Shown: piece by piece, positions 29,546 through 45,562 of the stretch
How positions within the stretch are numbered: the first letter of the stretch is position 1
How the letters are laid out: each line of letters starts with the position of its first letter
Assembly (NCBI GenBank): GCA_021404785.1
Contig: QWHH01000006.1
Location: 1-64,000 of the forward strand
Length of the DNA stretch: 64,000 nucleotides
Direction of reading: 5' to 3'
Source: Lysobacterales bacterium PRO7
GTDB lineage: Bacteria; Pseudomonadota; Gammaproteobacteria; Xanthomonadales; Rhodanobacteraceae
Made by a program: the position numbers and the translations under genes
The notes under the pieces: model-generated
The model's database searches: none
The model's input: only the letters and a program-made list of their open reading frames with translations
Told to the model about the DNA's origin: nothing

Positions 29546-30438
29546 GCGAGCAGCTTTTCCACCGGCAATACCAGCAACTGGCTCGCGCCGGCACGGCGCA
29601 AGTCCTCCAGATGCTGCCAGGTGACCGGCCCGTCGCAGACGGCCTGCAAGGCAACGCGGCCGTTGCCGCCCTCCACCGGGGTCACCGTTGGCAATTGCGG
29701 ATTCGGCAACAGCGCATTGATCCGATCCACACCGAAGCGGTCGATGTGCAGCATGACCAGCTTGGATTCGCGCACGCGCACCACACCGTCAATGCGACCC
29801 AGGAGCAAATGCAGGAGTTCGCCGCGCGCATCCGCGGGTGGGCTTTGCGCACCGGCGACTACGGCCTCGCTATCGAGCACCTTGAATGTCTCGCGCAACT
29901 GATTGGCCGCGAGCGTCGCCCCGCTCGATACCAGGTCGCAGATGGCATCGGCAGTGCCCAGGCGGGGTGCAATCTCCACCGAACCGGACAATTCGACGAT
30001 CGGCGCCGCCACGCCCTGTTCGGCCAGCCACGCACCGAGTAGCGCCGGATACGAGGTCGCGATGCGCAGGCCGTTCAGCTCTTGCACGGTCGCGCACGAC
30101 AGCTCCTGCGGCACTGCAATGGACAAGCGGCAGTGCGCGCTGTCCAGCGCGCGCAATTCGACGATGCCGCCGTCCTGCCGCGCGGCGGAATATTCGGCCA
30201 ACACATTGCGTCCGACGATGCCGATGTCGCACACGCCCTGTTCGATCAGGCACGGAATATCGTCGTCGCGCACGAGCAGCAGATCGACCGCCAGGCTTTC
30301 GCCGAAACAGAACAGCTTGTCGCGGCTGCGCCGGAAACCGAGTCCGCAACGCGCCAGCAGGTCCTGCGAGAACTCGGCCAACCTGCCGGATTTTTGCACC
30401 GCGATGCGCAGGCGCTCGCGATCGGTCGCAGCGCTCAT
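29542..30438 (-). CDS. hisG: ATP phosphoribosyltransferase (long form)
   Basis: A 298-residue enzyme for the first, feedback-inhibited step of histidine synthesis. [11 protein letters not shown] begins the catalytic domain and the C-terminal ACT-like regulatory domain (about 225-298) is present, so this is the long HisG that works without HisZ. ATG at 30438 overlaps the stop of the TrpR-like regulator gene (ATGA). Confidence 0.94.
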
Positions 30439-34228: not shown

Positions 34229-34305
<77 letters not shown>

Positions 34306-36356: not shown

Positions 36357-37706
36357 ATGCATTCCCAAACCCTGTCGGCAGCGCAGGCGGCAGCCGACTA
36401 TCACGAGCAACCCGGCGATACGTTCTATCGGGTTGCCATCCTGGTCGGCTTCGTCGTCGTCATCGCGGCGACCTGGCATTTGCGCGCGTTCCATGGCCTG
36501 ATCCACTCCGCGCACCAGTACGGCTGGCTGGGCTATGTCGCACGGCCGAGCCTGCTCTGGGCCGGCATGGGACTGCTGATGCTGCTGTATCGCACCCTGC
36601 TATGGTTTCGCTACCGCACCCCGCCGGTTGCCACGATGGAGGATGCGCCGTCGCTGACCGTGATCATTCCCGCCTTCAACGAAGGCGAAATGGTTGCGCG
36701 CACGATCGAATCCGTTGCCACCGCCCGCTACCCGCACGACCGACTGGAAATATTCGTCATCGACGACGGCAGCCGCGACGACACCTGGACGCACATCGAG
36801 CGTACCGCCATGCGCTTTCCCGGCCTCGTCACGACTTTGCGTTTTCCGCAGAATAGCGGCAAGCGCGCCGCGCTCGAAGCCGGTTTCCGCCGCGGCAAGG
36901 GCGAGGTGATGGTCACGATCGACTCGGACAGCGTGATCGACGCCGATACCCTGCTCGCCATGGCCGGTCCGTTCCGCGACCCGAAGGTCGGCGCGGTCGC
37001 CGGAAAGGTCAGCGTGTACAACCGCGCCGCCGGCATCATCCCGCGCATGCTCAATGTGCGCTTCGTACTGTCGTTCGACTTCCTGCGCGCGGCGCAAAGT
37101 ACCTACGGCACCGTGTACTGCTGCCCGGGCGCGCTTGCCGCCTATCGCACGCAAGCCGTGCGCCATGTGCTGGAACGCTGGGTCAGCCAGCACTTCCTCG
37201 GCGCGCGTTGCACGTTCGGCGAAGACCGCGCGATGACCAACGACATCCTCGACGCCGGCTACGACAGCGTCTACCAGCGCGCAGGCGTCGTCCATACCAT
37301 CGTGCCGGTGCAATACAAGAAACTGTGCAAAATGTTCCTGCGCTGGGATCGCAGCTACGTGCGCGAGGAAATGCGCTTCCTCGGCCGCATCGTCTGGAAG
37401 CGGCCGCGCCGCGCGCGCGCGATCGCGCTGGCCGATTCGCTGGTCACGACGACGCGCCATCCGGTCGGAATTGCCGCAATGTGCCTGCTCGTGGCGACGA
37501 TGTTCGACCATCCGGACATGCTGCTGCGCTTCGCCTGCGCCATGCTGATCGTCGCCGCGTTCAACATGCTCTACTACCTGCGCGCGGAACGTTCCTGGGA
37601 CTTCATCTACGGCATCGGCTATTCGTTCTTCTCGGTGTTCGCATTGTCGTGGATTTTTCCGTATGCGGTGTGCACGGCACGCAAGCAGGGTTGGCTCACG
37701 CGCTGA
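36357..37706 (+). CDS. Membrane GT2 glycosyltransferase (hyaluronan/chitin-synthase-like)
   Basis: A 449-residue processive-type GT2 enzyme. Two N-terminal helices (about 24-42 and 62-82) precede the catalytic domain, which has [21 protein letters not shown], the DSDS metal site, FGEDRAMTN and a QxxRW-like FLRWDRS. Three to four helices follow (about 375-440). This is the plan of NodC, hyaluronan and PNAG-type synthases. The product is unknown. It is divergent from a PIG-L deacetylase and its end overlaps argH on the other strand by 11 bases. Confidence 0.85.
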
Positions 37707-38991
37707 GTAAGTCCAGGCGCTTGCGCAGCTCATCCAGGCGCAAATCCGCATGCGCGCCGGGCGAGACACGCGCCGCAAGGCTTTGTTCCGCAGCGCGTCC
37801 TCGCCCCGCCGACGCCGCCGCTTCCGCCGCCACCCGATACGCGTCGCGGAACGGCACGCCTGCCACGGCCTGCTCGATCGCCACATCCGTCGCGTACATC
37901 TGCGGTTCAATCGCCGCGCGCATCGCATCCGCATTCCAGGTCATGCGCGCGAGCAAATCGGGAACGAGTTCCAGCGCCATCAAACCGTGGCGTACGCCGT
38001 GAAAAATCGAGCCCTTCGAAAACTGCAGGTCGCGCTGGTAACCCGACGGCAATGACAGCAATTGTTCGATTTCAGTGCGCGCAGCGGCGACGCTTGCGAA
38101 GCTCGCCCGCAGCAACTCCACGACATCCGGATTGCGCTTGTTCGGCATGATCGACGAACCGGTGGTGAATTCGTCCGGCAGCGTCACGAAGCCGAACTCG
38201 GCGGTGGTGAACAGTGACAAATCCCAGGCGAGCCGACGCAAATCGAGCAGCGCGCTGGCAAAGGCATCAAGCACCGCGATTTCGAATTTCCCGCGCGACA
38301 ACTGCGCGGCAACCGGATTGACCTGCATCCGAGCGAAGCCGAGCGCACGCGTGGTGTACTCGCGATCCAGTTTCAGGTTCACGCCGTAACCTGCAGCGGT
38401 TCCGAGCGGATTGACGTCGATCCAGGCGAGCGTGTCGCGCGCACGCCGCGCGTCATCGATGAAACTCTCGGCAAACCCGGCAAACCACATCGCCGTGGAT
38501 GACACCACCGCGCGCTGCAGGTGCGTGTAGCCCGGCAGCGGCAGCGCTTCGATTTCCGCACGATCCAGGCACACACGCGCAATGTCGCGGCAATGCGTTT
38601 GCAACCGCGCCAGATTTTCCTTCAGCCACAACCGCGTCGCTACAAGGACCTGGTCGTTACGGCTGCGACCGGTGTGCACGCGGCGTCCGGCATCGCCAAG
38701 GCGTTCGGTCAGGCGCGTCTCGATCGCGGAGTGGCTGTCCTCATATCGTTCATCCAGCACGAATTGGCCACTGCGAAAATCCTCGGCAAGTGAGTCCAGC
38801 TCGCGCGCAATGGCATCGCGTTCGTTTGGGGTCACAACGCCAATGTTCGCCAATCCATCGACATGCGCGCGGCTCGCCGCGATATCGTGCAGGAAGAACT
38901 CGCGATCGAGAATCACGTCATCGCCTGCGAGGAAGCGCATGATCTTCGCGTCGATGCGGGTAGCGGATTTTTGCCAGAGCGGTTCAGTCAT
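37696..38991 (-). CDS. argH: Argininosuccinate lyase
   Basis: A 431-residue fumarase/aspartase-family enzyme, final step of arginine synthesis. The signature [18 protein letters not shown] holds the catalytic Ser, and [10 protein letters not shown] and [10 protein letters not shown]-like segments are present. It is the last gene of the arg operon and overlaps argC by 8 bases. Confidence 0.95.
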
Positions 38992-39934
38992 GGGGAATCC
39001 CGGTCAATTCGTCGTGGCCAAGCGCACGGTTGAGGTTCTGCATGGCCTGGGTCGCGGCGCCCTTGAGCAGATTGTCCAGCGTCGCCACGATTACCACGCG
39101 CTTGCCGTCGGCGGCCAGCGTGAATCCACCGATCTGCGCGTCATGCCGGTGTGCGATGCGGCTGACCCATGGAGCCTCGTCGATTACCGTCACCAGCTTC
39201 TCGGCAGCGTACGCGGCATGGAATCGCGCAAGGATTTCTTCGCGTTTCATGGCGTGACTCAAATACAGATTCACGGTGACGGTCAGGCCGCGGAAATGCG
39301 GCGCGACATGCGGCATGAAATCCACCGGCACGCCGAGCCGGAAGCTCGCCTCCTTCTCGTGGGTGTGCCCGGTGAGCGCATACGGAATCAGGTTGTCGCG
39401 CAGTTTTTGCGGATCGTTCTTGTCCGATGGCGTGGTGCCGGCGCCGGAATAACCGGACACGCCGAAGCACGCCGGTGGCGCGGCGAGCAGATCCTTCAGC
39501 GGCGCGATTGCCAGCTGCATTGCCGTCGCATAGCAGCCGGGATTGCTGATGCGCTTCTGCCCCGCATAACCCTTGCGGGTGAGTTCCGGCAGACCGTAAT
39601 ACCAGGCGGCGTCGAAACGAAAGTCGGCGGAAAGATCGAGCACCAAAGTCTGCGGCGCGGCGACATCAATGGCTTGCACGTAAGGCACCGCCTTGCCGTT
39701 GGGCAGGGCCAGGATCACCACGTCGGCACGTTTGGCCACCACCGCGGCGGGATCGCGGTTCTCGTAGCGCAGATCGCCGGTATGGGAGTCGTTGTGCTCA
39801 CTCACGCGCTGGCCGTCGAGTTCGCGCGAAGAGACGAACACCAGTTCCAGGTCCGGATGCCGCGCGATCAACTTGATCAGTTCGGCGCCCGTGTACCCAC
39901 GTGCGCCGACAATGCCGATTCGCTGCTTGCTCAT
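38984..39934 (-). CDS. argC: N-acetyl-gamma-glutamyl-phosphate reductase
   Basis: A 316-residue NADP enzyme. The Rossmann start [14 protein letters not shown] and the catalytic Cys in [14 protein letters not shown] are intact. The ATG at 39934 overlaps the argB stop (ATGA) and has the usual start of the family; longer upstream frames fall inside argB. Confidence 0.95.
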
Positions 39935-41244
39935 GCGTCCACCAGCGTCGGCTCGCGTTGCGCACAATGCGTTGCGCAGCGTTCGATGGCGGAAAAGTCG
40001 TCGCCAAGTCCATACCAGAACGCGCGCCAGCGATCCTGCCGGATGCAGCCGTCGGCCTGTTCGTGGTAGAAGGCGTTGATGCTGTTGCGATGACGCGAGC
40101 GCCAGAACAGGCGCGGGTTTTCCGCGCGCATCACCAGCCACACTGCGCGCCCCAGACCCTCGCCCTGTGCGTCGTCGAGCACGGCGAACTTGTCCAGATA
40201 CGGCATGCCGTCTTCCAGCGTGAGGATCATCGCGGCGCGGTAGTTTTCGCTCACGTAAATGCGAAACGGCCGCGTGCGCTCGAAATACTCCGGTACCAGC
40301 TTGCGGCCGAAACTCGACTCGATCAACGCGCGCAAACGCGTGCAATCCACGGCGTTCCAGTCGTCGAAACGCTGCACTTTTTCACCACGCCGCACCAGCG
40401 TGCCCGAGCCCTTGTGGGTGAACAGTTCCTTGGCCAGTTCCGACGGCCGCGTGATTGATACCGACGAGGTCAGCGGCAGATCGTCCAACAGGTCGGCGAC
40501 CTGTTCGATCTTCAGGCGCATGCCACCTTCGATCCACGGCTGCGCCATCAGATGCGCGTATTCGGTGCTGAGGTTGATCGAGTCGATGATCCGCCCCGTG
40601 CCATCGAGCAGTCCGCCGCTGCCGGTAAGGAACACGATCTTGTATGGTTGCAACACGCGCACCAGTTCGTTCGCGGCCACGTCGGCGTTGATGTTGAGGA
40701 TCTGGCCCTCGTCGGTTTCGCCGAGGCTCGCGATCACCGGGATCGAGTTCGCGCGCAGGCTGGCTTCGATCGGCGCGAGATCGATGCGTTCCACCTTGCC
40801 GACCATGCCATAGGCGTCGCGATCGAGATAACCGGCCATGAACACGCCCGAGGGTATTGCCGTGGCGCGGGTGTCCATCGCCTGCAACGCCTCCACCAAC
40901 TTCAGGTTCTGCTGCACGAAAACGCGGCGCACGATGCCGAGCGCTTTCGGCGAGGTCACGCGCAAGCCATTCGCCGTTCGCTTCTCGATGCCGGCGGCGG
41001 AAAGTTCCGCATCGAGTTGCGGGCCGGCACCGTGCAGCACGATCGGCGTGAGTCCCACGCGCTGCAGGAAGGTCAGCGAGGAAGCAAGGTCCGCCAACTC
41101 GTCGCGCAACACCGCTCCGCCGACCTTGACCACGGCAAAGCGCTTGGCATCGAGCTGCGAGAAGCGCTTCAGATAGGCCTGGATTTCTTTCGCGCTGCCC
41201 ATGCTCGACAGCAGGCGGACGATCGTTGCGCGTACGTCACTCAT
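39931..41244 (-). CDS. argB: Bifunctional N-acetylglutamate kinase / N-acetylglutamate synthase
   Basis: A 437-residue fusion. Residues 1-285 form the amino-acid kinase domain ([34 protein letters not shown]). Residues 290-437 form a GNAT domain ([20 protein letters not shown]) with synthase activity. This NAGS-K architecture was characterised in Xanthomonas and Xylella and is typical of the order. It supplies the first two steps of the acetylated pathway. No clear ribosome site is seen before ATG; it may be coupled to the small ORF ending 13 bases upstream. Confidence 0.94.
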
Positions 41245-41257
41245 CGGCAGGTATCGT

Positions 41258-41347
41258 TCAATCGGAACACGGCGGAAGCGCCCCCCGATCGTCCATGGGG
41301 ACGGCGGTGGTCGGAGCGGGATGGCGAGCGTGCAAAAAGCGATTCAT
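41258..41347 (-). CDS. Possible 29-residue coupling peptide between argE' and argB
   Basis: A short frame starting [10 protein letters not shown] has its ATG overlapping the argE' stop (ATGA) and a GGAG 8 bases upstream. It ends at TGA 13 bases before the argB start. It has no recognisable domain and contains three Arg and three Asp. argB itself lacks a good ribosome site, so this peptide could carry ribosomes to it. It may equally be chance; comparison of homologues is needed. Confidence 0.35.
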
Positions 41348-42441
41348 GCGGTTTTCTCCAGCAGGCGACGATAGGTTCGGGCGGCGCTGTCGAGCTGTTC
41401 CAACGCCACCCATTCATCCGCCGTGTGCGCCTGGGCGATGTCGCCGGGACCGTAGACGAAGGCGGTGTAACCGGCGGCAGAGAACAGCGCGGCTTCGGTC
41501 CAGAAATCGACCGCGTTGCCGATCGGAATATCGAGCGCATCGGCGACGTCGCGCGCGGCAAGGCGGCGCGCCTCGGCGTGCGCAGTGTCGCCTGCGGGCA
41601 ATGCCGGGCCGCGAAACGTTTCGGCAAATTCCGCCGGTCGGACTTCGGCGAAACTACACAACCTCACGAGCAGATCATCGACGTCCATCGACGGCAATGA
41701 ACGCATGCCGAAGCGCAGTTCGGCGGTTGGCGCGATGACGTTTGGCTTGATCCCGCCTTCGATGCGGCCGATATTGAAGCGCAATCCGGCCAAGCCGTCG
41801 AAGTGTTCGTGGGCGAGCGATTCGACAAGACCAAGCGCGCGGCCACCCCAGCGCACGGCCTGATGCAACGCGTTGTCACCCGCCGCCTGTGCGCCTGATG
41901 CATGCCCGGCGCGTCCGGCAAAGCGTATCAACACTGAACTGATGCCGCGATGTGCGAGCACGGCTTCGCATTTTGTCGGCTCGCCAACGATGACGGCGTC
42001 GAACTTCGGTGTGCCTTGCAGGAACGCCCTGATGCAGCGCGGATCGGCGCCTTCCTCATCGGTCGTGAACAGAAAGGCGGCATCGCCCGCACTCGCCTGC
42101 GCGGCCGCGAGCAAGGCCGCCACGGCGCCCTTGATGTCGCATGCGCCGAGGCCGTTCGCGCGCGTGTCGTCGACACGCAGTTCGAACGGGCTCGCACTCC
42201 AGTGCGGCGAATCCGGGACGGTATCCAGATGCACATTGAACAGCAATTTCGGCTTGCCGCGAATGGCCAACAGGCTCACCGCGCCAGTACCATGATCGGT
42301 CAGCGAGCAATCGAAACCCGGCAGGTTCGCGCGCAGGTAATCGAAAATGCCGCCCGTGTCGATCGCGCGCGGCGGATTGCGCGTGTCGAATCCGACCAAC
42401 GCACGCAGATGCTTCAGAGTGGCATCAAGCAAGGCAGTCAT
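41344..42441 (-). CDS. argE': N-acetylcitrulline deacetylase
   Basis: A 365-residue M20 metallopeptidase-fold enzyme. Zinc-site segments [25 protein letters not shown] and [11 protein letters not shown] are all present. In this pathway the acetyl group is removed at the citrulline level, because the carbamoyltransferase next to it is the acetylornithine type. The ATG overlaps the argG stop (ATGA). Ordinary acetylornithine deacetylase is the main alternative and is less likely in this operon. Confidence 0.9.
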
Positions 42442-43628
42442 CCGCGATTGACCTGCGCCCACAGCGTCGAACTCATGCCGTAGAGCTTGATGAAGCCTTC
42501 GGCTTCGGCCACACCCCAATCGGCCGATTGCGCATAGGTCGCGCCCTTGGCATTGAGGATGTGCGGCGATTCGATGGCCACCGCATTCACGACTCCGCCA
42601 CTGGTTTCCAACACGACGTCGCCATCGACCATGCACTGGCTCGACGCGAGGAATGCTTCAAGGTCGGTTTTGAGCGGGTCGTGGAAGAAGCCCTCATAAA
42701 CGAGCTCCACCCATTTGCGCGCGACTTCGGGCTTGAAGCGGTTCTGCTGCCTGGTCAGCACGGCTTCTTCCAGCGCGCGATGTGCGGTGAGCAACGCGAT
42801 GAGGCCCGGCGCCTCGTACACGATGCGGCCCTTGAGGCCGATGGTGGTGTCGCCGGTGTAGCTGCCGCGTCCGACGCCGTACTGCGCGAACAACCCGTTG
42901 AGTTTCGCCAGCAACGTGTGGCCGGCGATCTTCTTGCCGTCGAGTGCGACCGCCTCACCGTTGGTGAACGTCAATCTCATGCGCAACGGCGCGGTCGGCC
43001 ATTCGCTGCGCGGCTTGCACCAGCCGCGCGCGCCTTCACCGGGCGCCTCCCAACGATCGATCTCGCCGCCGGACATCGTCACGCCGAGCAGGTTCTCGTT
43101 GATCGTGTATTCCTTTTGTTTGGAACGCACCGCGAAACCGCGCTCTTCCAGATACTTCTGCTCGTAGACGCGTGTTTGCGTGTGTTCCTTCTGGATTTCG
43201 CGGATCGGCGCAACGATTTCAAAATCGCCCTGCGCCTTCACCGCAAGGTCGAATCGAACCTGGTCGTTGCCCATGCCGGTGCAGCCATGCGCGATCGCGC
43301 GCGTGCCAAGCTCTGCGGCACGCCTCAGAACCGCGTCGACAATCAGGTATCGATCCGACACCAGCAGTGGATACTGGCCCTGATAGCCCTCGCCCGCCCA
43401 CACGAAGGGTTTGACGAAATCGTTCCACAGCGCCGGACCGCCGTCGATGGTTCGATGCGAGGCGGCGCCGAGTTCCTGCGCTCGCTGTTCGATGTAGGCG
43501 CACTCGCGCCCATCCACGCCGCCGGTGTCGGCGAACACGGTGTGCACGGCCCAACTGCGCTCCTTCAGATATGGCACGCAGAAACTCGTGTCGAGGCCGC
43601 CCGAAAACGCGAGGACGATGTCTTTCAT
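42438..43628 (-). CDS. argG: Argininosuccinate synthase
   Basis: A 396-residue ATP-pyrophosphatase-fold enzyme. It has the P-loop [25 protein letters not shown] and the citrulline/aspartate site around [11 protein letters not shown]. It overlaps argF' by 4 bases and also has its own GGGAG 6 bases upstream. Confidence 0.95.
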
Positions 43629-44650
43629 TGTTTGCTCCCGGATTGTGCGACCAGCGCAGCCATCACCGCCTTCTGCACATGCAGGCGGTTCTCGGCTTCG
43701 TCGATGGCGATGCAGGCCGGCGAATCCATCACCGCATCCGTCGCCTTGACGTTGCGCCGCAGCGGCAGGCAATGGCTGAACACACCACTCTCGGTCAGCT
43801 CTATCTTGGCTGCGTCGACGATGAAGTGCTTGTGTGCATCGCGGATGGGTTTCTCATCCGCCCAGCGGCCGAAATACGGCAGCGCGCCCCAGCTCTTGGC
43901 GTAGACGATATTTGCGCCGCGGTAGGCACTTTCCGGATCATGGCTTAGCGCGAACGAGCCGCCGTTTTCGGCAACGTTTCTCGCCGCGAAATCCATGTAG
44001 CGCGGATCGAGTACGTATTCCGGCGTTGGGCACAGCAAAGTCACGTCCATGCCGAAACGGGTCGCGATCTGCAACGCGGAGTTTGCGACCGCGGTGTTCA
44101 ACGGCTTGGGGTGATAGGTCCAGGTCAGCACGTATTTCTTGCCGCGCAAATCCGGCGTGCCGAAATGTTGTTGCAGCGCGAGGATGTGCGCGAGCTCCTG
44201 CATCGGATGCGTGATCGTTTCCATGTTGATGACTGGCACCGTCGCGTATTTCGCGAACGCATGGATCACGCGATCCTCGCGGTCGATGGCCCAATCCTGG
44301 AATTTCGGGAATGCACGCACGCCGATCAGGTCGACGTAGCGCGACAGCACGCGCGCGACCTCGGCGACATGCTCCTCGGCTTCGCCATCCATGACCGTGC
44401 CGACATCGAACTCGATCGGCCATGCGTCCTTGCCCGGTTGCAGCACGATCGCGTGGCCGCCAAGCTGGAATGCACCGAGCTCGAAGCTGGTGCGCGTGCG
44501 CATCGACGGATTGAAGAACAGCAGCGCGATCGACTTGCCGGCAAGTTCGCGTCCGAGCTTGTTGCGCTTGAACGCGGCCGCACTCGCGAGCAAGGCGTCG
44601 AGTTCGGCGCGGGACCAGTCCTGGGTGGAAAGAAAATGTCTTGGAATCAT
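43625..44650 (-). CDS. argF': N-acetylornithine carbamoyltransferase
   Basis: A 341-residue transcarbamylase. The carbamoyl-phosphate loop reads SMRTRTS at 49-55, whereas ornithine enzymes have STRTR. A Glu at about 92 (in GEAEEH) and the C-terminal loop [13 protein letters not shown] match the acetylornithine-specific enzyme of Xanthomonas. It makes acetylcitrulline. It heads the arg operon and is preceded by a 250-base leader containing an Arg-codon leader peptide and a terminator. Confidence 0.94.
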
Positions 44651-44732
44651 GGTGCGATGCTCTTGGTGAAAAGTCGGCCATGGATGGCCGCTTGTTCTTT
44701 GCGCGAATGGAGGCGCGCTGAAATAACGAAAC

Positions 44733-44760
44733 AAAAAACCCGGCGCAGTGGCCGGGTTTT
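44733..44760 (-). terminator. Attenuator terminator in the arg operon leader
   Basis: On the minus strand AAAACCCGGC pairs with GCCGGGTTTT around a six-base loop and runs into six T, then GTTTCG. It lies 83 bases before argF' and inside its leader, so it would stop transcription before the operon. Its 5' arm (44750-44757, ACCCGGCC on the minus strand) is exactly complementary to GGCCGGGT at 44795-44802, next to the stop of the leader peptide. Confidence 0.8.
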
Positions 44761-44792
44761 GTCGGAACGAACGAAACAAACGCGCGCGACAG

Positions 44793-44897
44793 CTACCCGG
44801 CCGGAATGATGGGTTCCGGTCGGCGCGCGCGCGAGGTCATGCCGGCGGCCATGCGGGCGCTGGTCAGGACGAGGGCGTTGGCGGAAAGATTGGGCAT
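44793..44897 (-). CDS. Predicted arginine leader peptide (34 residues)
   Basis: A short frame MPNLSANALV... ends with TAG 33 bases before the terminator stem. Arg codons occur at positions 15, 23, 25 and 26 (CGC, CGC, CGC, CGA), three of them within four codons near the 3' end. A ribosome waiting there would leave GGCCGGGT (44795-44802) free to pair with the terminator's 5' arm; one reaching the TAG would cover it. This is the usual layout of amino-acid attenuators. The ATG is at or near the predicted transcript start, so the peptide may be translated leaderless. Confidence 0.65.
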   Translation of the reverse strand: MPNLSANALVLTSARMAAGMTSRARRPEPIIPAG

Positions 44898-44904
44898 GAC
44901 GTGC

Positions 44905-44934
44905 ACGGTAGCACGAACTTCTTTTGCGATGCAA
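44905..44934 (-). promoter_or_regulatory. Candidate arg operon promoter
   Basis: On the minus strand TTGCAT (44929-44934) and TACCGT (44905-44910) are spaced by 18 bases. The -10 match is weak (3 of 6). It would start transcription within about ten bases of the leader ATG at 44897. Confidence 0.4.
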
Positions 44935-44962: not shown

Positions 44963-45562
44963 CTATTCCGACGGAGTCACGCTCACCCGCACGCGCAGGC
45001 GGTCACCCGGATCGTACGCAAGCCGCGAGGTATAGACATCGCCGCGATACCGATACTCGACTTCGTAGGCGACCGGCTTGCGCTGGACAGAGCCGGATGG
45101 CGGGCAGTGCCGTACCGTCGAGTACTGGACATGCGCGTCGCCTGCTTCCCCGGCCGCAGCGATGTTGTTGCCAGCGACACCGCCGGCAACGGCGCCGGCA
45201 ACCGTCGCCGCCGCGCGCCCCGATCCCTTGCCGACCTGGTTGCCGAGAATGCCGCCGACCAAAGCGCCAATCGTCGTGAAAATCCCGCGTCGGTTGTGCG
45301 CGGTTTCGTCCGCCGGCGCGGACACGGGCACCTGTTCTTCGTAGCACGGCTGCGATGCGGAAGCGGATTCGTCGTTGCCATAGATCGGATCCACACGCAG
45401 CACATCGGCCCAACCGAAATGCGAATTTTCTTCCGCCGACAGGGCCGGTGGCGGCGGCACGGCAGAAAATTCCTGCGCTGCGGGCGATTCCGAATCCTGC
45501 GCGCAGGCCGCTGTCGCCAACAACAGCGCGGCAACGAATGGAAGGAATCGAACGAGTTTCAT
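44963..45562 (-). CDS. Glycine-zipper (17-kDa antigen-like) envelope protein
   Basis: A 199-residue protein with a signal peptide containing AAC (Cys about 20), which could be a lipobox. Residues about 95-130 form a glycine-zipper 2TM domain (GALVGGILGNQVGKGSGR and a second GxxxG run). The C-terminal 60 residues resemble the beta-rich tail of such proteins (YEVEYRYRGDVY). Proteins of this family sit in the outer membrane or periplasm; function is unknown. It lies just upstream of the arg promoter on the same strand. Confidence 0.82.
   Translation of the reverse strand: MKLVRFLPFVAALLLATAACAQDSESPAAQEFSAVPPPPALSAEENSHFGWADVLRVDPIYGNDESASASQPCYEEQVPVSAPADETAHNRRGIFTTIGALVGGILGNQVGKGSGRAAATVAGAVAGGVAGNNIAAAGEAGDAHVQYSTVRHCPPSGSVQRKPVAYEVEYRYRGDVYTSRLAYDPGDRLRVRVSVTPSE

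Follow-up and report, generated by a model that had tools for sequence, protein, structure and literature searches.

Arginine synthesis is the textbook case of control by ArgR. The arg operon (argF'GE'BCH) carried by the window, by which is meant the whole stretch of 64,000 nucleotides analysed here, raises the question of how its expression is set, since ArgR control was rejected on the grounds that G000, the genome holding the window, has no match to the ArgR model (TIGR01529). The answer reached is that a ribosome-mediated transcription attenuator very probably sets the expression of this operon through the charging of a single tRNA, tRNA-Arg(ACG). This reading is built on features accessible by sequence and comparison, namely a short frame, its Arg codons, two exclusive pairings, their covariation and spacing, and the missing ArgR match.

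Layout of the arg leader

The leader region (44,735-44,934, minus strand) and the operon, whose gene names are taken from NCBIfam, can be dissected as follows.

44929..44934, minus strand: -35-like hexamer TTGCAT, read from the sequence
44905..44910, minus strand: -10-like hexamer TACCGT, 18 nt past the -35-like hexamer and ending 7 nt before the leader ATG
44793..44897, minus strand: leader peptide frame MPNLSANALVLTSARMAAGMTSRARRPEPIIPAG followed by its stop, 34 codons, probably without a 5' untranslated region
44820..44831, minus strand: putative regulatory Arg codons CGC (23), CGC (25) and CGA (26), with GCG (Ala 24) in between
44795..44802, minus strand: predicted 5' segment of the antiterminator, GGCCGGGT, its last base common to the stop codon
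44798..44822, minus strand: predicted protector (1:2-like) hairpin, CCGGAA with UUCCGG, from the fold of the window only
44735..44760, minus strand: intrinsic terminator AAAACCCGGCcactgcGCCGGGTTTT, then a T-rich tail
43625..44650, minus strand: argF', N-acetylornithine carbamoyltransferase (NF003384), first structural gene
42438..43772, minus strand: frame with argG, argininosuccinate synthase (NF003385)
41344..42636, minus strand: frame with argE', acetylornithine deacetylase (NF006439)
39931..41244, minus strand: argB, acetylglutamate kinase (NF003386)
38984..40345, minus strand: frame with argC (TIGR01850)
37696..38991, minus strand: argH (TIGR00838)

The initial annotation had described a 34-codon frame with four Arg codons, three of them within four codons near its end, which stops shortly before a terminator. 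All this can be read directly: the Arg codons occupy positions 15, 23, 25 and 26, the frame ends as SRARRP...AG and the stop, and the terminator stem (10 pairs, closed by a 6-base loop) begins 32 nt after the leader stop. The complementarity reported between the end of the frame and the terminator 5' arm is also found, GGCCGGGT (44802-44795) matching ACCCGGCC (44757-44750) at 8 of 8 positions, with the nuance that the eighth base of the match falls in the terminator loop, outside the stem.

The surroundings of the leader show some variation. A palindromic GGCCATCCATGGCCG element lies between the terminator and argF' (44659-44704, minus strand). Similar stretches can be recognized by eye before argF' in several Dokdonella-like loci, with two copies in L008 and L017; three other places in G000 match at 85-91%, and a stricter pattern retains this copy only. 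In a Dokdonella MAG (L077, 1604-2000), about 400 nt, mostly made of a repeated unit with GCAATTGCAGGCGATCGCC, separate the leader from argF'. On the other side, the upstream neighbour (44963-45562, minus strand) resembles the glycine-zipper protein family NF008437, with a score below its cut-off, and its apparent coding end also precedes the leader in some relatives, as judged by eye.

Distribution across the order

Taken by itself, the window locus is a weak case, and its layout could be a coincidence. Six of the 15 terminator-like hairpins in the window, including the arg one, come after a short frame in which a stretch of five codons includes three Arg, which corresponds to 5 of the 14 other terminators. 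The whole leader folds no better than its shuffles (z -0.76). Such figures would suit a simple explanation, in which the hairpin serves only the upstream gene (44963-45562) as its terminator and Arg codons occur by chance in GC-rich DNA. The comparison with related loci makes it exceedingly unlikely.

The families f1 to f12 follow the family numbering of the order genome set. The loci nearest to the window comprise 80 named argF' loci, the best 80 of 566 from a contig scan, labelled f1/f2 and unsorted by family, and 30 further loci from 200 order genomes, all f1 or f2 and with the window among them. The named loci span Xanthomonas, Stenotrophomonas, Lysobacter, Pseudoxanthomonas, Luteimonas, Arenimonas, Dokdonella, Rudaea, Luteibacter and others. 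The motif MTSRA[RH]R is found within 450 nt before argF' in 110 of these 110 loci (L005-L114), which represent 98 distinct leaders of 136 nt. From the nine families f3-f11, 40 loci were fetched and 39 judged from tables and by reading, L125 being too short. An Arg-cluster leader is present in 33 of the 39 (f3 3/3, f4 7/7, f5 3/3, f6 0/1, f7 2/2, f8 10/10, f9 4/4, f10 3/8, f11 1/1). The automatic Arg-cluster test gives similar counts, with 32 of 39 (L154 being missed) and 107 of 110 for L005-L114. The initial annotation had set beforehand a sequence test, according to which homologous leaders should keep the Arg codons and the complementary segment; the former are indeed retained, and so is the latter in most leaders.

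The peptides of f5-f11 have diverged (PRRRRV, RRARRTRRP, LRRRRR, VRRRRP, RRRDRRP, the weakest cases being L139 and L140) and their Arg clusters are kept, which is what codon sensing predicts. The terminator is present in 143 of the 150 loci outside f12. The leader is absent from 5 of the 8 f10 loci and from the sole f6 locus. Two f10 loci, L141 and L144, show a terminator before argF' and no leader frame was found there; this is perhaps a remnant, or a differently driven switch.

A more specific pattern, GMTSRARR, matches 78 of the 200 order genomes, once in each, versus none with the reversed control, and has no match in any f5-f12 genome. In 77 of the 78, the match lies 0.1-0.3 kb before argF' (the tables were compared by eye, and the place of argF' is not listed for G062). 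Extra leader copies before other genes were thus discarded as a candidate, the pattern being single-copy in 78 of 78 genomes. At the level of the class, MTSRARRP matches 5 of 369 genomes, all of them within the order. Outside the order, no Arg leader was found before OTC genes in 28 loci (28 of the 100 matching genomes) and a terminator-like hairpin within 400 nt before OTC in 1 of 28, a survey that is weak because OTC often lies inside an operon. The switch thus appears to be present in most sampled families of the order.

A probable leaderless start

Of 105 distinct f1-f4 leaders, 84 have a pair of hexamers resembling -35 and -10 elements whose end lies 6-10 nt ahead of the leader ATG; among shuffles, this is the case for 143 of 2100. 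A suitably placed, Shine-Dalgarno-like purine-rich 4-mer is seen in 31 of these 105. The window carries TTGCAT-18-TACCGT, which ends 7 nt ahead of the ATG; a stricter promoter scan of the window reported no promoter at this place. If transcription began 6-8 nt downstream of the -10 element, the 5' end would coincide with the leader ATG or lie close to it, and the leader frame is thus probably devoid of a 5' untranslated region.

Exclusive pairings and their covariation

The antiterminator segment, the terminator 5' arm and the 3' arm form a triplet that was surveyed in 117 of 121 f1-f4 leaders, those with a recognisable terminator core (L009, L116, L117 and L125 were dropped). It reads GCTGGGT/ACCCAGC/GCTGGGT in 57 of the 117, GCCGGGT/ACCCGGC/GCCGGGT in 27 and GCTGGGT/GCCCAGC/GCTGGGC in 16, with 17 others. 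The 7-mer pairing between antiterminator and 5' arm is fully Watson-Crick in 85 leaders, with one G-U in 19 more. Counted from the last Arg codon, the antiterminator lies at a fitted offset of 18 nt in 98 of the 117. The same spacing emerges when nothing is fitted: the 7-mer at 18 nt is 84.5% Watson-Crick with the terminator 5' arm, versus 16-40% when slid by 1-6 nt (103 distinct f1-f4 leaders). The segment lies at 17, 18 or 21 nt in 94 leaders, and among these the variable column is C-G in 32 and T-A in 60, with one T-G and one C-A. None of 2000 permutations equals the observed pairing of this column, a result inflated by the relatedness of the leaders. These pair counts were made by script; alignment A1 (58 sequences), in which the terminator arm is one column off in several rows, was left out of them. 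The antiterminator and the terminator, as predicted, are mutually exclusive and kept so by covariation in f1-f4, the window included.

Other letters are used elsewhere. In f9, TGCCAGGTT pairs with AACCTGGCA, and TCTTTGG with CCAAAGA; f7 has the pairing segment GGCTGGGT, and several f4 leaders show only weak pairing partners.

The selectivity of the complementarity depends on how it is searched. With a loose test, the best Watson-Crick match to the terminator arm anywhere in the approximately 90 nt upstream, the mean over 143 loci is 6.7 nt versus 5.1 in shuffles, and 23% of shuffles reach the observed length. A combined test involves an Arg cluster together with a match to the terminator arm located 6-45 nt past the cluster. 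Using a 7-nt match, 82 of 120 f1-f4 loci and 13 of 29 f5-f11 loci pass, versus 2 of 112 background terminators (from 505 kb, some loci overlapping); at 6 nt the corresponding values are 105 of 120, 14 of 29 and 11 of 112. Since only 13 of the 29 f5-f11 loci pass at 7 nt, the pairing is well established for f1-f4 only; at most 13 of 23 leaders in f5-f11 satisfy this test.

Conservation of the frame, fixed spacing and covariation together rule out chance, and chance Arg codons ahead of an ordinary terminator were discarded on the same grounds and on the combined test against background. The idea of a mere terminator of the upstream gene is contradicted by these three features and by the promoter-like site lying directly before most of the leaders.

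ArgR and other known regulators

ArgR had been named in the initial annotation as the usual route of arginine control. This fits the situation in the order, where 192 of 200 genomes have no match to TIGR01529; the 8 matching genomes all belong to f12, none of them above the curated cut-off. The control search gave a match in 9 of 14 known genomes. In the 8 genomes of f12, about 1.22 kb separates the ArgR match from the argF-like gene, and neither a leader nor a terminator was found (0 of 8 each) in the 450 nt before argF, which look by eye like argD coding sequence. ArgR loss and leader presence are not strictly tied, since the genomes of the f10 and f6 loci devoid of a leader have no ArgR match listed either. 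These loci possibly have another control, or none.

A riboswitch, a T-box or a protein-bound leader could in principle sense arginine without translation, as T-boxes are named as RNA-level control of arginine operons in other species in PMC1262725. Known RNA families were rejected here, since with Rfam 15 only a tRNA reaches the gathering score in the window. Moreover, the invariant columns of a 58-row alignment of near relatives are those of the coding block, the antiterminator segment and the terminator, which makes sensing without translation a most improbable explanation.

An invariant CGA codon

In 98 of 98 distinct leaders the Arg cluster ends with CGA, a codon that represents 1.0% of the 1547 Arg codons of argF' (80 named loci). 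The other two cluster positions are CGC or CGT, apart from one His codon in L006, and CGG is never used at the cluster positions of the 98 leaders, though its share among Arg codons in argF' is 9.7%. The clusters of L126 and L152, from f5 and f9, hold no CGA, so the fixed CGA belongs to f1/f2-type leaders.

G000 has 41 tRNA matches, and Arg is represented among them by three anticodons, ACG, TCT and CCG, each found once. The first anticodon base of tRNA-Arg(ACG) is read as inosine. Given this set of anticodons, CGC, CGU and CGA presumably share tRNA-Arg(ACG). In Salmonella, CGA in the his leader is described as causing strong de-attenuation and more stalling, and the tRNAs that it shares with CGU and CGC as decoding it less well than those two (PMC4046918). 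Codon choice as a setter of attenuation sensitivity is discussed in PMC1183508, and the invariant CGA would offer a clean test of this idea. The neighbouring codons behave similarly: the leader Ser is TCG and the Pro CCG, each in 96 of 98 leaders (38% TCG and 75% CCG in argF'), which suggests that some codon-level constraint exists there too. A tRNA-Pro(CGG) gene found at 34232-34305 (minus strand) would supply the tRNA for the CCG that comes after the Arg cluster.

Selection on the leader peptide

The leader peptide itself is also constrained. The ratio pN/pS, calculated on samples of 60 of 91 leaders and 50 of 77 argF' sequences, is 0.095 for the A-x-G-M-T-S codons, 0.015 for RARR and 0.234 for the block A-x-M-A-x-G-M. 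It reaches 1.33 in the flanking leader codons before the block and 0.87 in those after it, and is 0.246 in a core stretch of argF'. In the 98 distinct leaders, the Gly, Thr and two Ala positions vary in codon with the residue fixed, and near relatives conserve the residues upstream of the putative stall site with free synonymous sites. The conserved block stops where the Arg cluster stops, even in the near-tailless f4 leaders L120 and L123. The AxGMTS stretch is thus, by these substitution patterns, under purifying selection. Since the classical mechanism makes no demand for peptide conservation beyond Arg, either the nascent chain takes part or the peptide would have another role. More generally, this conservation raises the question of whether the peptide of a classical attenuator can influence the very ribosome that makes it.

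The chain A-[AS]-G-M-T-S-R-A-R-R might act from within the exit tunnel to arrest or slow the ribosome, either by itself or with free arginine or ornithine as its ligand, the Arg codons then mattering mainly as residues. The low pN/pS of A-x-G-M-T-S relative to argF' and to the flanks, the residues fixed despite varying codons and the end of the block at the Arg cluster all speak for such a sensor. Three observations are at odds with it: the GMTS block is missing from the f5-f11 leaders read, in which the Arg clusters remain; the invariant CGA is a constraint on the codon, not on the residue; and an arrest induced there by arginine would leave the antiterminator free, so that expression would go up, which is the wrong sign. 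As a full explanation it is therefore rather unlikely; in f1-f4, nascent-chain sensing could also be an element superimposed on the codon-sensing switch.

Selection on the peptide would equally be expected of a small protein acting in trans, to which the attenuator layout would be secondary, and peTrpL, a leader peptide described as acting in trans (PMC7298713), provides a precedent. Nevertheless, both ends of the peptide are free (pN/pS about 1), some f4 frames stop almost directly after the Arg cluster, and the motif is single-copy and, in the 77 genomes with a listed place for argF', located shortly before that gene. A role in trans is thus quite improbable.

For comparison with other attenuators of the order, the regions before hisG were analysed in 30 loci, drawn from 61 genomes, and in the window. 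Short frames with three His among six codons occur in 3 of these 31 regions (L225, L237 and L239), none of which is leader-like, and terminators precede hisG in 1 of 30 loci and ilvG in 0 of 30. In the window, no His-run leader was found ahead of hisG (29857-30411, minus strand); the adjoining upstream frame resembles, by eye, a TrpR-type repressor.

Proposed mechanism

The codon-sensing attenuator can be described in terms of three masked folds. With the ribosome at Arg26, where the RNA is available from 44807 on, assuming CGA 26 in the A site and 12 nt covered beyond, the antiterminator is predicted. With the ribosome at the stop codon (fold from 44790), the terminator is predicted. Without a ribosome (fold from 44822), the CCGGAA/UUCCGG hairpin would hide part of the antiterminator arm, together with formation of the terminator. 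These models give the outcomes expected by the initial annotation, in which a stall at the Arg codons frees the antiterminator and a ribosome at the stop blocks it. Low Arg-tRNA should thus let transcription through, and plenty of it, or no translation, should end transcription. The spacing is consistent with this behaviour: with 18 nt in 98 of 117 leaders, and in the masked folds, a ribosome at the regulatory codons spares the antiterminator, and one at the stop covers it.

From these features, we infer the transcription start, the translation of the frame, the stalling and the response to arginine. Transcription would begin at the leader ATG or only a few bases away from it, with the ribosome trailing RNA polymerase. 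When Arg-tRNA is scarce, the ribosome would stall within Arg 23-26, above all on CGA, which is poorly decoded; GGCCGGGT would then be free to pair with ACCCGGCC, no terminator would form, and argF'GE'BCH would be transcribed. When Arg-tRNA is ample, the ribosome would reach the stop codon and cover GGCCGGGT, so that the terminator would form and transcription would end about 165 nt from its start.

A more elaborate version can be put forward tentatively, with some doubt. The leaderless mRNA, the conserved chain and the obligatory CGA would jointly tune pausing in a composite sensor, with a sharp response to the charging of one tRNA, and this device would have taken the place of ArgR across most of the order. 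If true, it would join codon-sensing and tunnel-sensing leader peptides, which are usually treated as separate. The invariant CGA, the selection on the peptide and the probable lack of a 5' untranslated region were all absent from the initial annotation.

Most sampled families of the order, to which Xanthomonas, Stenotrophomonas, Lysobacter and Dokdonella belong, seem to use translation-coupled termination and not ArgR. The order also provides a natural experiment, with families having the GMTS block, families having Arg clusters only, families without the leader, and one with ArgR.

Comparison with known systems

No arginine attenuator of a bacterial arg operon was found among the titles and abstracts listed for open-licence papers, nor in Rfam 15; subscription papers may hold a prediction. 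A survey of proteobacterial attenuators was reportedly made by Vitreschak and colleagues in 2004. In the main text of PMC2965389, the words 'arginine' and 'argF' are absent.

Several systems are partly comparable. ArgR control serves the same physiological end through a protein repressor that binds arginine. The fungal arginine attenuator peptide is likewise an upstream peptide linked to arginine synthesis; it differs in that free arginine arrests the ribosome and blocks eukaryotic translation, with no terminator involved. The cysS uORFC-8-2 motif of Rhodobacterales was likewise predicted by comparative genomics inside a single order and also combines tandem regulatory codons with ribosome-mediated attenuation, but it concerns cysteine and a tRNA synthetase gene (PMC8632094). 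By analogy of its working, the nearest relative is the Salmonella orf34-speF leader, which also has a 34-codon frame with consecutive Arg codons and reads arginine supply by ribosome speed. It controls, however, a polyamine gene by way of Rho, of decay by RNase G and of how accessible the ribosome-binding site is, and its authors report having found no intrinsic terminator there (PMC6386406).

The arg leader is a classical attenuator by design, for an amino acid without such an attenuator found in open-licence papers. It shares with the his, trp, leu and thr attenuators of Proteobacteria, as presented in PMC1183508, a short frame with codons for the end product, an antiterminator competing with an intrinsic terminator, and an operon for the same amino acid. 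What sets it apart from them is that arginine would be sensed, together with three features suggested by the sequences: a last regulatory codon fixed as CGA in the f1/f2-type leaders, a peptide block under selection, and a predicted leaderless start.
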